A stretch of DNA of 40,792 nucleotides from Oscillospiraceae bacterium (lineage in GTDB: Bacteria; Bacillota; Clostridia; Oscillospirales; Oscillospiraceae): NCBI GenBank assembly GCA_017397565.1, contig JAFQIL010000001.1, positions 1-40,792 on the forward strand. Reading direction: 5' to 3'. This document shows, piece by piece, positions 28,175-32,784 of the stretch (positions within the stretch are counted from its first letter, which is position 1; each line of letters starts with the position of its first letter). Made by a program: the position numbers and the translations under genes. Below the pieces are notes generated by a model. That model worked only from the letters and a program-made list of their open reading frames with translations, did not search any database and had not been told where the DNA came from.

Positions 28175-30244
28175 TTATACAGACCTTGTCCATTCCGTGA
28201 TCAGCAGGCCGGGAAGCACCCAAACCAACTCATACAGCAGAAGATTCATAGGGGTCAGCAGATGGTTTGCGCCTACGATTCCCAGCACCAGCATCATCAC
28301 AAGACCCAAAATACCGCCCAGCATATGCACCGCCACACCGGCAGACCATGCAATTTTCAAAGCCCGGGCACCGGTAACCGCATAGGCAGCACCGGACAGA
28401 TTTTCGCCGGTGGTCAGCGCCATGGCAGGAAGCTCCTGATCCGGCTGAACCTGAGACAGTTCCCGACGCACAGCCCGATCCGGGAAGGCCATTTTCCGTG
28501 TGTTCACGCCGAATTTTCCACGAAGGAAGCTCTCTGTCAGCATAAAATCACCGGTGGTCAGCATAGGTATGAGTTTGCGGTACGCACACAATGTGGTAAG
28601 TCCCGCAGCCACGCTCTTGTTTTTGGTATAGGTAATGGCAAATACACCGCAAAGCTGTCCATCAATAGCCGCATACACCGCCTGATTGACCCGGGTGCCT
28701 TCCGGCATATCCACGCCCATATCCTGCATAAAGGTCAGAGTACCCATCAGCACCGCTTCGTTATTGACCACACCGCCGATGCCGCCTGAATAATGCTGCA
28801 GCTGCTGAGCTTCATAATGATAACCGTTGCGGCTGTCCAGCAGCTGGGCAAACAAAGGCGCTGTGCCGTCTCCGTCTGCGCTCATCAGCGCTGCGGTATA
28901 CGCTACTACTTCATCAGGATCCCGGGTCCCGTAGAATTTCACACCGTTCATCTTGGTATGCCCGGCAGGGAACAGATCCTGATCGCCCAGAGGGAAGACC
29001 GCATCGCCGCACAGCTTTTTCACGCCCTGCCAGCCACACAGCACAGCCCCTACCTTATGCAACCGCCGTTCCAAAATTGCCATAGGACGGCTTAAGGTAA
29101 TATAAGTCGTTGCCGGAACCGCCACCAACAAGGCGGAAGCAAAGGCCTGCATTCCCTGCTCCATGCCCTGGAGCACGCCGGCTGTGGCGCCGATGGCGAT
29201 ACTGACAAACAGGGCTACGATAGCATAGACCGACAAGGTCTTTTCCGGGCCGGTGGACTTGTTGTAATTGTCCATAAAGTCCTCAACCTGACCCTCTCCC
29301 CGGAGGATACCGGCACGGCCCTCATAATAATCCGGCACTTGAACCAGACTGTGCAATCTGTTTGCTTTGCGCATGGTGTCCATCTGACCCATTTCCGTGT
29401 TGCGGACATGGTAAGCACCCCAAAGAGACATAGTCATATTCAGGCTGAAGGCACCGCAGCAGGGCAGCCGCTTTTGCTGCAGGCACAAAACACCATCCAC
29501 CAGGCAGGCCAGGAAGCTGAATACCAACAGGGTATTCAAAGAGAAACGGCGTTTGAACAGGTCGCCAATGCCCTCCATCAGCTGATAGCTGCCAAACATA
29601 GCCGACAGCAGCAACGCCAGGAACTGCCAAAAAATCATCAGCCGCAGCCGCTGCGCCGGAATATAGTTCATGCTGTACAGGAAAGTCGCGCCAATGGCAG
29701 CCACGGCGATCAGCAGGTTTAGGAAAATTGCAGCCTGCAGCTTGCCGAGGCCCTGTTCTGCCAGCTCATAATACCGTTTTTCCGGACCGGCGATCAGCTT
29801 CCGCTTCAGCTCCTGCAACCGGGACTTGGGACGAAAAACAATGGGCTGGGGCGGTACATACTCTCCGATGGGCTGCTCGTACTCAGGCTCCCATTCTTCT
29901 GAGAAGGGCTCTACAGGCTCTTCTTCCGCAACGGGCTGTTCATAGGCATCCTCCGGCAGAGAAAACCGCACGGTATCGCCCAGATCCTGTTTCGGTGGGG
30001 ACTGTACCGGTGCATCCAGCCGTACGGTATCCTGAGATACTGTATCAAACCGAACGGTATCCTGAGAAACCGCGTCAAACCGCAAAGTATCCTGGGGCAC
30101 TGTATCCAACCGCACAGTATCCTGGATAGGATCCGGTTCTTCCGCAATGATTTCTTCCGGTTCCAGCTGTTCCGATTCAGAACCGAACTCTTTTAAGATA
30201 TCATCCAGGTCAAATGCCTGCTCCTGGTTTTTATTCTCATCCAT
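28175..30244 (-). CDS. Degenerate P-type ATPase-like membrane protein with an N-terminal DTVRF repeat tail
   Basis: This 689-residue protein starts behind AAGGAGG. Residues 1-140 are acidic and cytoplasmic. A ten-residue unit, QDTVRF-D-x-V-S, repeats from 41 to about 80, with a further DTVRF at 90-94. Hydrophobic segments lie near 169-190, 203-220, 236-255, 338-357 and 368-384, with a final pair at 632-656 and 663-684. The 385-630 loop follows the P1-type ATPase order. VPATTYITLSRP replaces CPCAL-x-x-x-x-P, GDQDLFPAG (420-428) stands where DKTGTLT-x-G is expected, GGIGGVVNNEAVLMG is N-domain-like, and LTTGDFMLTESFLRGKFGV resembles the TGDN region. No DKTGT, TGES or HP motif is present, so pumping is unlikely. 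The family call is inference. rlmB lies 12 nt upstream. Confidence 0.6.
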   Translation of the reverse strand: MDENKNQEQAFDLDDILKEFGSESEQLEPEEIIAEEPDPIQDTVRLDTVPQDTLRFDAVSQDTVRFDTVSQDTVRLDAPVQSPPKQDLGDTVRFSLPEDAYEQPVAEEEPVEPFSEEWEPEYEQPIGEYVPPQPIVFRPKSRLQELKRKLIAGPEKRYYELAEQGLGKLQAAIFLNLLIAVAAIGATFLYSMNYIPAQRLRLMIFWQFLALLLSAMFGSYQLMEGIGDLFKRRFSLNTLLVFSFLACLVDGVLCLQQKRLPCCGAFSLNMTMSLWGAYHVRNTEMGQMDTMRKANRLHSLVQVPDYYEGRAGILRGEGQVEDFMDNYNKSTGPEKTLSVYAIVALFVSIAIGATAGVLQGMEQGMQAFASALLVAVPATTYITLSRPMAILERRLHKVGAVLCGWQGVKKLCGDAVFPLGDQDLFPAGHTKMNGVKFYGTRDPDEVVAYTAALMSADGDGTAPLFAQLLDSRNGYHYEAQQLQHYSGGIGGVVNNEAVLMGTLTFMQDMGVDMPEGTRVNQAVYAAIDGQLCGVFAITYTKNKSVAAGLTTLCAYRKLIPMLTTGDFMLTESFLRGKFGVNTRKMAFPDRAVRRELSQVQPDQELPAMALTTGENLSGAAYAVTGARALKIAWSAGVAVHMLGGILGLVMMLVLGIVGANHLLTPMNLLLYELVWVLPGLLITEWTRSV

Positions 30245-30256
30245 GAAAAATCCTCC

Positions 30257-31036
30257 TTAACCCAAACGCTGCCGCACAGCCTCATACAGCAAAATAGAGG
30301 CTGCCGCGGAGGCATTCAGGGAAGATATCCTGCCGTTCATAGGAATATGCACCGTCACGTCACAGTTTTTCCGCACCAGCGGGCTCATCCCCTGCCCCTC
30401 ATTGCCAATGACGATGGCTGCCGGGCCTGCCAAATCGGCCTTATACATAGGAATCGAACCTTCTGCCGCTGTACCGAAGATCCATACACCCCGGTCTTTC
30501 AGCTCGCTGATGGCATTGTTGATATTGACCACTCTGGCCACTTTCATATATTCCACCGCACCGGCAGAAGCTTTTGCCACCACCGCCGTCAAACCTACGC
30601 TGCGGCGTTTAGGAATGATAACGCCGTGGGCACCGGCACATTCCGCGCTTCGCATAATAGCGCCCAAATTATGGGGATCCGTCAGCTCGTCACAAATAAC
30701 GATCAGCGGCGCTTCTCCCCGACTTTCCGCCTCCTGCAGAATATCCTCAATAGTGGCATATTCATGGGCAGCCGCCAGGGTAATCACGCCCTGGTGGGCA
30801 TGGGTGGTGCTCATAGCATCCAGCTTCCGACGATCCACCGGCACAACCACCGCACCGGCCTCCTTGGCCTGGGCAGCCAGTCGCTGCAGCGCACGGTCTG
30901 TATCACCGGCGGCAATAAACACCTTGTCAATGGTACGGCCGCTGCGCAGGGCTTCTGTCAGGGCATTGCGGCCTTCCAGCTGACCCTCGATCTCCTCCAC
31001 AGGTGCCGGGGCATTCCGGCGATGCTTCTCATTCAT
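30257..31036 (-). CDS. rlmB: 23S rRNA (guanosine-2'-O-)-methyltransferase RlmB, SpoU family
   Basis: It methylates a 23S rRNA guanosine (G2251 in E. coli) using S-adenosylmethionine. I chose the ATG at 31036 (MNEKHRR, 259 residues). Ten further in-frame codons overlap the leader. The N-terminal SpoU substrate-binding domain begins IEGQLEGRNALTEAL. The SPOUT knot motifs are intact: ICDELTDPHNLGAIMRSAEC, AIVIGNEGQGMSPLVRKNCD and IPMNGRISSLNASAAASILL. It heads an operon with the pseudo-P-type ATPase gene. Confidence 0.93.
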   Translation of the reverse strand: MNEKHRRNAPAPVEEIEGQLEGRNALTEALRSGRTIDKVFIAAGDTDRALQRLAAQAKEAGAVVVPVDRRKLDAMSTTHAHQGVITLAAAHEYATIEDILQEAESRGEAPLIVICDELTDPHNLGAIMRSAECAGAHGVIIPKRRSVGLTAVVAKASAGAVEYMKVARVVNINNAISELKDRGVWIFGTAAEGSIPMYKADLAGPAAIVIGNEGQGMSPLVRKNCDVTVHIPMNGRISSLNASAAASILLYEAVRQRLG

Positions 31037-31093
31037 AAGCTTCCACTCTCCAAATCCGGCAGCCAAAAGGCTGCATCTGTCATAATTAGTATC

Positions 31094-31176: not shown

Positions 31177-31205
31177 TTGAATTTTCCTTTCTATAGGAGT
31201 ATAAT
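31177..31205 (+). promoter_or_regulatory. Promoter of the phosphoglycerol transferase gene
   Basis: TTGAAT (31177-31182) and TATAAT (31200-31205) are spaced by 17 nt. This supports the downstream ATG at 31246 over the ATG at 31177, which lies within the -35. Confidence 0.78.
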
Positions 31206-31245
31206 GCGTACTATAGAAAATAAGATCACCGAAGAAGGTTTTCCT

Positions 31246-32784
31246 ATGACTGCAAAAACCAACAAACAATCCCGTCCGGGGCGGAAGCTTCTGATCTTTC
31301 TGGGGATGACTTGCCTGTGTCTGATCTCCCTGCTGGCATTTTTGTGTTTCTTCTCTGCCCGGTGGTATGTCCGGGTCTATGGCCGAATCGGCTTTGACTC
31401 TGTGTTATATACCCTCACCAGCAGTCTCAGCGGGACACAGTGGGATCTCATCGAGCAGTATCTTATCCACGCTGCCCTGCCTGCCTTGGGCTGTACTTTG
31501 GGCGTCAGCCTGCTGCTGTTCCTCCCTTGGAAATGCCTGCGAAAGCTCCAAAACCGGCGCACATTGGCTTCCTGTATCAGTCTCCTTTTAAGTCTGGCAC
31601 TATTGCTCCACGCCGCCTTCAATGTGCAGTTTGTGGACTATGTGATTGCCATTTCCAGCAACTCCGAGCTCTACCAGGAGCAATACCGGGATCCCAAGGA
31701 TATCCAAATCACCTTCCCCGAAGAAAAGCGGAACCTCATTTATATCATGATGGAATCCATGGAGACCAGCTATCTGTCACAAGAGTTAGGGGGCGCACTG
31801 GAATACAATCTGATTCCGGAGCTGTATGATCTGGCGCAAGATAACATCAACTTCTCCCACAATGACGGTGTAGGCGGTTTCCGGGAGGTGTCCGGCACCA
31901 GCTGGACCATCGGTGCCATGGTAGGTCACACCGCCGGTGTGCCGCTGAAGGTTCCCGAGGGGATCAAGGATTGGCAAAACGGCTACGGAAAAGACGGACA
32001 TTTTCTTCCCGGTCTTTCCAACCTGCAAACCGTGCTGAAGGAAAACGGCTATTATCAAGCCCTGATGGTGGGCTCTAACGCCAACTTTGGCGGCAGAAAA
32101 ACCTACTACGAAACCCACAATGTGGATAAGGTCTATGACCTGTATACCGCCAGAAAAGATGCCATCGTTCCTCCCGGCTATTTTGTATGGTGGGGCATGG
32201 AAGATCTGCATCTGTATGAATATGCCAAGCAGGAGCTTACGGAGATCTCCAAACAGGATCAGCCCTTTGCCTTTACCATGCTGACTGTAGATACCCATCA
32301 TATCGGCGGCTACAACTGTGAATACTGTAACAGCGAACACGAAGAAAGCTACGAAAACGCCATTTCCTGCGCCAGCCGGCAGCTATTTTCCTTCGTGGAA
32401 TGGCTGAAGCAGCAGGATTTCTACGAAAACACCACAATTATCATCACCGGCGACCACTGCTCTATGGACAAGGGTTATTTCAGCCGTAATGTGGATGAAA
32501 ACTACACCCGTCACGTCTACAACTGTTTCATCAACGCGGATGCTACCCCACATCAAACCAACAATCGGCAGTTCAGCGCCCTGGATATGTTCCCCACCAC
32601 CCTGGCCGCCATGGGCTGCACCATTGCCGGCGACCGGCTGGGTTTGGGTGTCAACCTCTTCTCCAATCAGCCTACACTGATGGAACGAATGGGCTACAGC
32701 ATCTTTTATAAGGAGCTGGCCAAATCCTCTGCGTTCTACGCCGAGCATTTTTACGCAGAAGAAGATATCATCCCCAGTACCTGA
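31246..32784 (+). CDS. MdoB/LTA-synthase-family phosphoglycerol transferase (sulfatase fold)
   Basis: Relatives transfer phosphoglycerol to polymers or glycolipids at the outer face of the membrane. I chose the ATG at 31246 (512 residues) with GAAGAAGG before it. A longer frame overlaps the promoter. Three membrane helices lie near 14-37, 74-95 and 108-128. The alkaline-phosphatase-like domain follows. Its candidate metal or catalytic residues are E170 in YIMMESME, Thr in GTSWTIGAMVGHTAGVPL (about 218), D349 with THH, and D403/H404 in TGDHCSMD. The GTSWT-x-x-x-MV motif is closer to MdoB/OpgB than to classical LtaS. A role in glycerol-phosphate decoration of the envelope is inference. Confidence 0.85.
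   Translation: MTAKTNKQSRPGRKLLIFLGMTCLCLISLLAFLCFFSARWYVRVYGRIGFDSVLYTLTSSLSGTQWDLIEQYLIHAALPALGCTLGVSLLLFLPWKCLRKLQNRRTLASCISLLLSLALLLHAAFNVQFVDYVIAISSNSELYQEQYRDPKDIQITFPEEKRNLIYIMMESMETSYLSQELGGALEYNLIPELYDLAQDNINFSHNDGVGGFREVSGTSWTIGAMVGHTAGVPLKVPEGIKDWQNGYGKDGHFLPGLSNLQTVLKENGYYQALMVGSNANFGGRKTYYETHNVDKVYDLYTARKDAIVPPGYFVWWGMEDLHLYEYAKQELTEISKQDQPFAFTMLTVDTHHIGGYNCEYCNSEHEESYENAISCASRQLFSFVEWLKQQDFYENTTIIITGDHCSMDKGYFSRNVDENYTRHVYNCFINADATPHQTNNRQFSALDMFPTTLAAMGCTIAGDRLGLGVNLFSNQPTLMERMGYSIFYKELAKSSAFYAEHFYAEEDIIPST

Follow-up and report, generated by a model that had tools for sequence, protein, structure and literature searches.

The window, the 40,792-nt stretch of Oscillospiraceae DNA analysed here, carries on its minus strand a 689-residue open reading frame (28175–30244) that we annotate as a predicted pseudo-P1B-type ATPase gene, on the basis of its matches in relatives, its dN/dS and an hhalign comparison of its family with CopA-type ATPases. 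Immediately upstream on the same strand lies rlmB (30257–31066), encoding the 23S rRNA G2251 2'-O-methyltransferase, which scores 239.7 bits on TIGR00186 (E = 3.1e-71; cut-off 160.15 bits). The end of rlmB lies 12 bases upstream of the pseudo-ATPase gene, and its TAA overlaps the AAGGAGG that precedes the next ATG. Divergent from rlmB, a frame at 31177–32784 encodes an LtaS/phosphoglycerol-transferase-like sulfatase.

A first search of relatives recovered a homologue of the 28175–30244 protein in 59 of 60 genomes, comprising 37 of 37 from the genus (its own genome counted) and 22 of 23 from other families, and the frame is therefore not a chance one. Against six relatives its dN/dS was 0.081, 0.124, 0.168, 0.196, 0.177 and 0.197, compared with 0.016–0.095 for rlmB, indicating that the pseudo-ATPase gene is constrained, yet less so than its neighbour. 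Values of 0.08–0.20 against six relatives rule out a pseudogene; this is a real gene that encodes a membrane protein and is under purifying selection. The hydrophobicity profile shows six main hydrophobic blocks, and two of these could each hold a pair of helices.

The assembly from which the window derives is 60.55% complete and consists of 89 contigs. The closest named loci belong to Oscillospiraceae metagenome-assembled genomes (89% identity, L094), and loci named Faecousia, an Oscillospiraceae genus in the NCBI taxonomy, are 47–60% identical. One genome, G017, has two pairs of rlmB and pseudo-ATPase genes (L030 and L061), the second encoding a protein 40% identical to that of the window. 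Stops in the frames of the G515, G551 and G492 homologues are terminal stops only, and the remaining listed homologue rows have no internal stop, apart from two genomes: in G047 the homologue is spread over two frames, and in G057, a single metagenome-assembled genome, an in-frame TGA between the first membrane part and the A-domain loop splits the gene (L035:4125-6557), for which a split protein, an error and decay are all conceivable.

Distribution and the rlmB neighbourhood

Long matches to the protein (best E below 1e-60, our own cut) occurred in 137 of the 147 genomes of its order and in 24 of 26 families. The order, which we take to be the Oscillospirales of GTDB, is a major gut order. 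Across a class-wide sample of 391 genomes the gene was present in 17 of 18 from its own order, the exception being G390, and in 0 of 373 from other orders of the class, none of which gave a match better than 3.6e-37. In a phylum-wide sample of 299, all three genomes of the own order passed 1e-40, and 0 of the 296 others did. The pseudo-ATPase family is thus seen in one order only.

Both genes were found in 136 of the 147 genomes of the order. In 129 of these 136, rlmB lay on the same strand and at most 2.6 kb upstream, a distance measured to the match, which often omits much of the N-terminal tail; counted by locus, rlmB was the same-strand upstream neighbour in 122 of 131 distinct loci. The preliminary description had asked whether rlmB is always adjacent: the association is the rule, but in seven of the 136 genomes the two genes are on different contigs. 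One of the seven (G473) has a pseudo-ATPase gene that reaches the contig end, and another (G037) has obg upstream of the gene and rlmB elsewhere. Because of G037, and of G524, where the gene is present and no rlmB match was found at 1e-25, we conclude that the two genes can be separated.

Genes beyond the pair vary. A paralogue of EF-G (NF009381) comes next on the same strand in 30 of 131 loci and lies downstream in five of the 22 further families retrieved (f13, f15, f18, f19 and f22), and the window has in its place an acetyltransferase-like frame with only a weak model match. EF-G paralogues of this type were annotated at L114:374-2443, L034:2086-4188 and L036:1862-4030, lying downstream of the pseudo-ATPase in the families of L034 and L036. 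Separately, L031:966-3011 encodes an RlmB with a long N-terminal extension, a 682-residue frame whose methylase domain is C-terminal.

Read from gene order alone, the fixed rlmB neighbour, at times joined by EF-G, hints at a link to translation. The competing explanation, to which we give only slightly less than even odds, is that the pairing is inherited gene order only and the protein has no connection with ribosomes; gene order is the sole link between the two genes, and both the parted pair of G037 and the changing genes beyond it would fit such an account. Against it, each of the 24 families that have the gene includes a genome with rlmB upstream, an order that persists while the flanks change, and eight genomes lack both genes. 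Of the ten genomes of the order without a long match, two, G449 and G040, carry rlmB close to where a contig stops (G449 also has the beginning of the pseudo-ATPase gene there); in the other eight rlmB too is missing at 1e-25, with only weaker matches to it. These eight include G390, G480, G504 and G541, each at least 95% complete and two of them from one genus, making true joint loss likely in these four, although assembly gaps could mimic it.

Descent from P1B-type ATPases

We compared the family with pumps profile to profile. Aligned by hhalign, 30 family members matched 11 genuine CopA-type ATPases with a probability of 99.9 and E = 1.3e-36 over 524 columns, and the genus alignment alone gave E = 3.2e-14 over 225 columns. 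Control comparisons of the family profile with a reversed CopA alignment, EF-G, RlmB, a MATE protein and an LtaS-like sulfatase, the last two represented by single sequences, gave E values of 0.2–0.78. With a significant match on one side and negative controls on the other, homology to P1B ATPases is firm, and it is secure through the family only: the window protein by itself matched no Pfam model, was borderline against the P1B model TIGR01525 (E = 0.013), and gave E = 0.018 and 0.068 against the copper-transporting ATPase chains 7si3 and 7xuk. This HMM–HMM result, with neither reversed nor unrelated controls significant, bears out the kinship that the preliminary description had proposed.

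Searches with individual members agree with this picture. Fourteen of the 30 matched the CopA model PRK10671 (best 3e-16) and 11 of the 30 matched TIGR01525; their NCBIfam matches comprised five P1B models, with one member each for two SepX/GlpR models and TIGR01620. P-type Pfam models matched 0 of 30 members at 0.01, one member matched Extensin_1, Pfam found no metal-binding domain in the 30, and no Pfam or NCBIfam model specific to the family emerged from searches with these members. In the opposite direction, the family profile retrieved genuine ATPases of other orders (best E = 3.6e-37), with only the core covered where the match was listed. On this sequence evidence, the window protein is almost certainly a P1B-derived pseudo-ATPase.

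The alignments comprised 30 homologues (A1), 16 homologues (A2), 73/80 loci (A4) and 11/16 true ATPases (A5). For motif counts, 143 homologue rows and 16 true ATPases were aligned to one profile. Homologues identical over their last 250 residues were counted once (131 loci; 143 rows), a row needed more than 250 aligned residues to be included, L035 contributes two rows through its split gene, and 16 frames with DKTGT were set apart.

The order of parts follows that of a P1B pump. Residues 165–282 (29399–29752) form the first membrane part, putatively MA, MB, M1 and M2, with three hydrophobic blocks of which the third fits two helices, in agreement with hhalign. They are followed by an A-domain remnant without TGES at residues 283–340 (29225–29398) and by one long hydrophobic block at residues 341–386 (29087–29224), putatively M3 and M4 in agreement with hhalign, in which VPA replaces CPC. 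GDQDLFPAG, at residues 420–428 (28961–28987), aligns column by column with the DKTGT loop; GGIGG, at residues 487–491 (28772–28786), corresponds to the N-domain GxG[IV], and TTGDFMLTES, at residues 563–572 (28529–28558), to TGDN. Two final hydrophobic blocks, putatively M5 and M6, occupy residues 631–689 (28178–28354). This succession, from the CPC position to the final helices, is the one that the preliminary description had read from the sequence, and the profile–profile alignment reproduces it. With CopA/ZntA-type pumps (PRK10671, TIGR01525) the family thus shares the order of P and N domains, the second glycine of GxG and the TGD aspartate, and its hydrophobic blocks and hhalign alignment could accommodate their 4+2+2 helices. 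Unlike them, it lacks DKTGT, TGES, HP, the motif III lysine, GDGxND and CPx, has a shortened A domain, and possesses a new N-terminal motif and a DLFPxG loop.

Lost, rebuilt and retained motifs

A P-type pump cycle cannot run without the aspartate loop, the phosphatase loop and the GDGxND segment. Each of the three is altered or missing throughout the family. D[KR]TG appears in two of 143 rows, both times in the N-terminal tail, so that DKTGT is absent from its place in 143 of 143 rows; the suggestion that the motif had degenerated into GDQDLFPAG in the window protein holds, and so does its extension to the homologues. The aspartate of DKTGT is the residue named for P-type ATPases in one report (PMC10654040). 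At its column the family has D in 20 of 143 rows and T or S in 58; lysine is outside the six commonest residues at position +1, as is glycine at +3. The loop that takes its place, xDxDLFPxG, has its own conservation, with D or E at +3 in 135 of 143 rows (D in 125), F or Y at +5 in 134, P at +6 in 136 and G at +8 in 109. A likely half-way state is seen in some families, for example VMVDAKDLFPKG (L037) against VIFDKTGTITKG in a genuine ATPase used in the hhalign comparison.

Other catalytic parts have gone altogether. By our reading of the hhalign alignment, about 66 template residues of the A domain, TGES among them, have no counterpart in the family, whose loop has a median length of 58 residues; TGE[SA] occurs in three of 143 rows, none of them in the A loop (two in N-terminal tails and one in the N domain). 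The same reading places a deletion of about 34 template residues from GDGIND onward, and GDGxND occurs in 0 of 143 rows, as does CP[CHS] at the M4 position. At the column of the HP histidine, 16 of 16 true ATPases have H, and the five commonest residues in the 143 homologue rows are G (93), S (22), A (5), L (4) and T (4). The motif III lysine is outside the five commonest residues at its column, and GN has mostly become GT or GS. The preliminary description was therefore right that TGES and HP are missing, with a list that was incomplete: the A domain is also shortened and the GDGxND segment deleted. Its proposal that the fold is kept may hold for the helices and the P and N domains, as far as sequence can indicate, but not for the A domain.

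Retained positions include the TGD aspartate in 134 of 143 rows, the second glycine of GxG in 141 and a later glycine (G501) in 142, so that some ligand binding remains conceivable. A nucleotide or phosphate sensor, in which the N/P-like domain binds nucleotide without hydrolysis and reports to a partner, would draw on these residues. We nevertheless consider a sensor unlikely, given that the HP histidine is mostly G or S, that GN is mostly GT or GS, that the motif III lysine is uncommon and GDGxND lost, and that the conserved glycines may be structural.

In the membrane, the last helix has the near-invariant W675 (0.95 weighted), and P377, at the CPx position, is conserved at 0.78 weighted. 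This proline and the preserved P1B order of the membrane part would suit an ATP-independent permease or channel, in which substrate would cross the helices passively and the cytosolic domain would be no more than a gate. Among the 45 most conserved columns, however, the membrane part contributes W, Y, G and P, one S/T position (T238) and an aromatic column at C262, with no charged or thiol residue conserved family-wide, and we regard such a transporter as quite improbable. As for a non-canonical HAD enzyme acting through the DxD of the new loop, which resembles HAD phosphatase motif I and has D at +3 in 125 rows, the first D is present in only 88 of 143 rows and is elsewhere often H, Y, S or A, and motifs III and IV are gone, so that poor conservation rules out DxD as a phosphatase site and leaves this reading with next to no credence.

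Ahead of the membrane part the window protein has an N-terminal tail of about 150 residues, which is longer elsewhere in the family. Near its tip, FDLDDILKEF at residues 11–20 (30185–30214) belongs to a motif, FDLxDILxEF, that has the highest mean information of any segment where alignable (2.08 bits against 1.0–1.6, with 34% of the weight gapped). A loose form is present in 114 of 143 rows and absent from 29, distant families among them. Outside the gene, 638 kb of two genomes (1,893 frames of at least 80 residues) contained two loose matches, neither of them N-terminal, leaving unsupported the idea of a general docking signal common to many proteins. In 1.53 Mb of loci the motif had 27 distinct matches, the window gene included, and 12 of the 15 near protein ends were in putative RlmB frames. 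The RlmB linker has a similar YxxxDDILxEA stretch, ATIEDILQEA in the RlmB of the window (30257–31066); the likeness is weak and resembles a common helix start, and mimicry would be an idea only.

Further along the tail, residues 41–77 (30014–30124) consist of tandem QDT[VL]R[LF]D repeats. The pattern [DE]T[VI]R[LF] occurs 56 times in the 94 tails of the genus set, where shuffling gives a mean of 0.09, and 0 times in the remaining 49, among them two, L062 and L063, from the same genus. DTVR[LF] resembles a phospho-Thr docking consensus; with no occurrence in the 49 tails outside the genus set, docking of this kind is not the function of the family, and we set these repeats aside as sites with a family-wide role.

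A putative membrane scaffold or receptor

Loss of the pump motifs, purifying selection and the same ribosome-modifying neighbour together make a new, non-pumping membrane job probable. Since helices and a P/N-like domain are kept, the active-site loop is rebuilt and the motif at the tip of the tail is retained, a scaffold or receptor fits, although we hold this mode of action to be evenly balanced between right and wrong. The sensor or scaffold role that the preliminary description had thought possible is likewise still a guess. As a whole, our best explanation, to which we give a probability of roughly 0.5, is that the protein may be a P1B-derived pseudo-ATPase serving as a membrane scaffold or receptor. 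The sequence shows what became of the CopA-like pump: the loop with the catalytic aspartate, the phosphatase loop, the GDGxND segment and the CPx site are gone, and the membrane part and a P/N-like domain in the cytosol are kept. The rebuilt xDxDLFPxG loop, together with the motif near the tip of the long, probably disordered cytosolic tail, would then bind a soluble partner. Expression may be tied to that of RlmB by a common and probably translationally coupled operon, an arrangement in which the gene order is observed and the transcript presumed. Given this operon, one may guess at a partner from ribosome modification or translation. A more specific form of the proposal is a long shot: the dead pump would act as an order-specific anchor, its N-terminal motif and rebuilt P/N domain holding RlmB, the EF-G paralogue or ribosomes at the Oscillospiraceae-type membrane.

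Well-known pseudoenzymes exist among kinases and in other families. Our literature search found no described family of free-standing dead bacterial P-type ATPases; it covered few subscription papers and is weak evidence of novelty. An analogous precedent for a degenerate P-type ATPase module is offered by the protist guanylyl cyclases (PMC6592433, PMC7858053). In these, above all in PfGC-beta, a P4-ATPase-like domain with degenerate signature residues is kept beside another function; in PfGC-alpha, according to the same reports, the ATPase aspartate could not be replaced, so that this module is thought to be active. Unlike the window protein, the module described there is eukaryotic, of P4 type and fused to a cyclase.

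The presence of the pseudo-ATPase gene in 137 of 147 genomes of the order, as half of a fixed gene pair, leads us to expect a basic function, one that no Pfam or NCBIfam model names. The missing pump parts make the question of whether the protein pumps directly testable.
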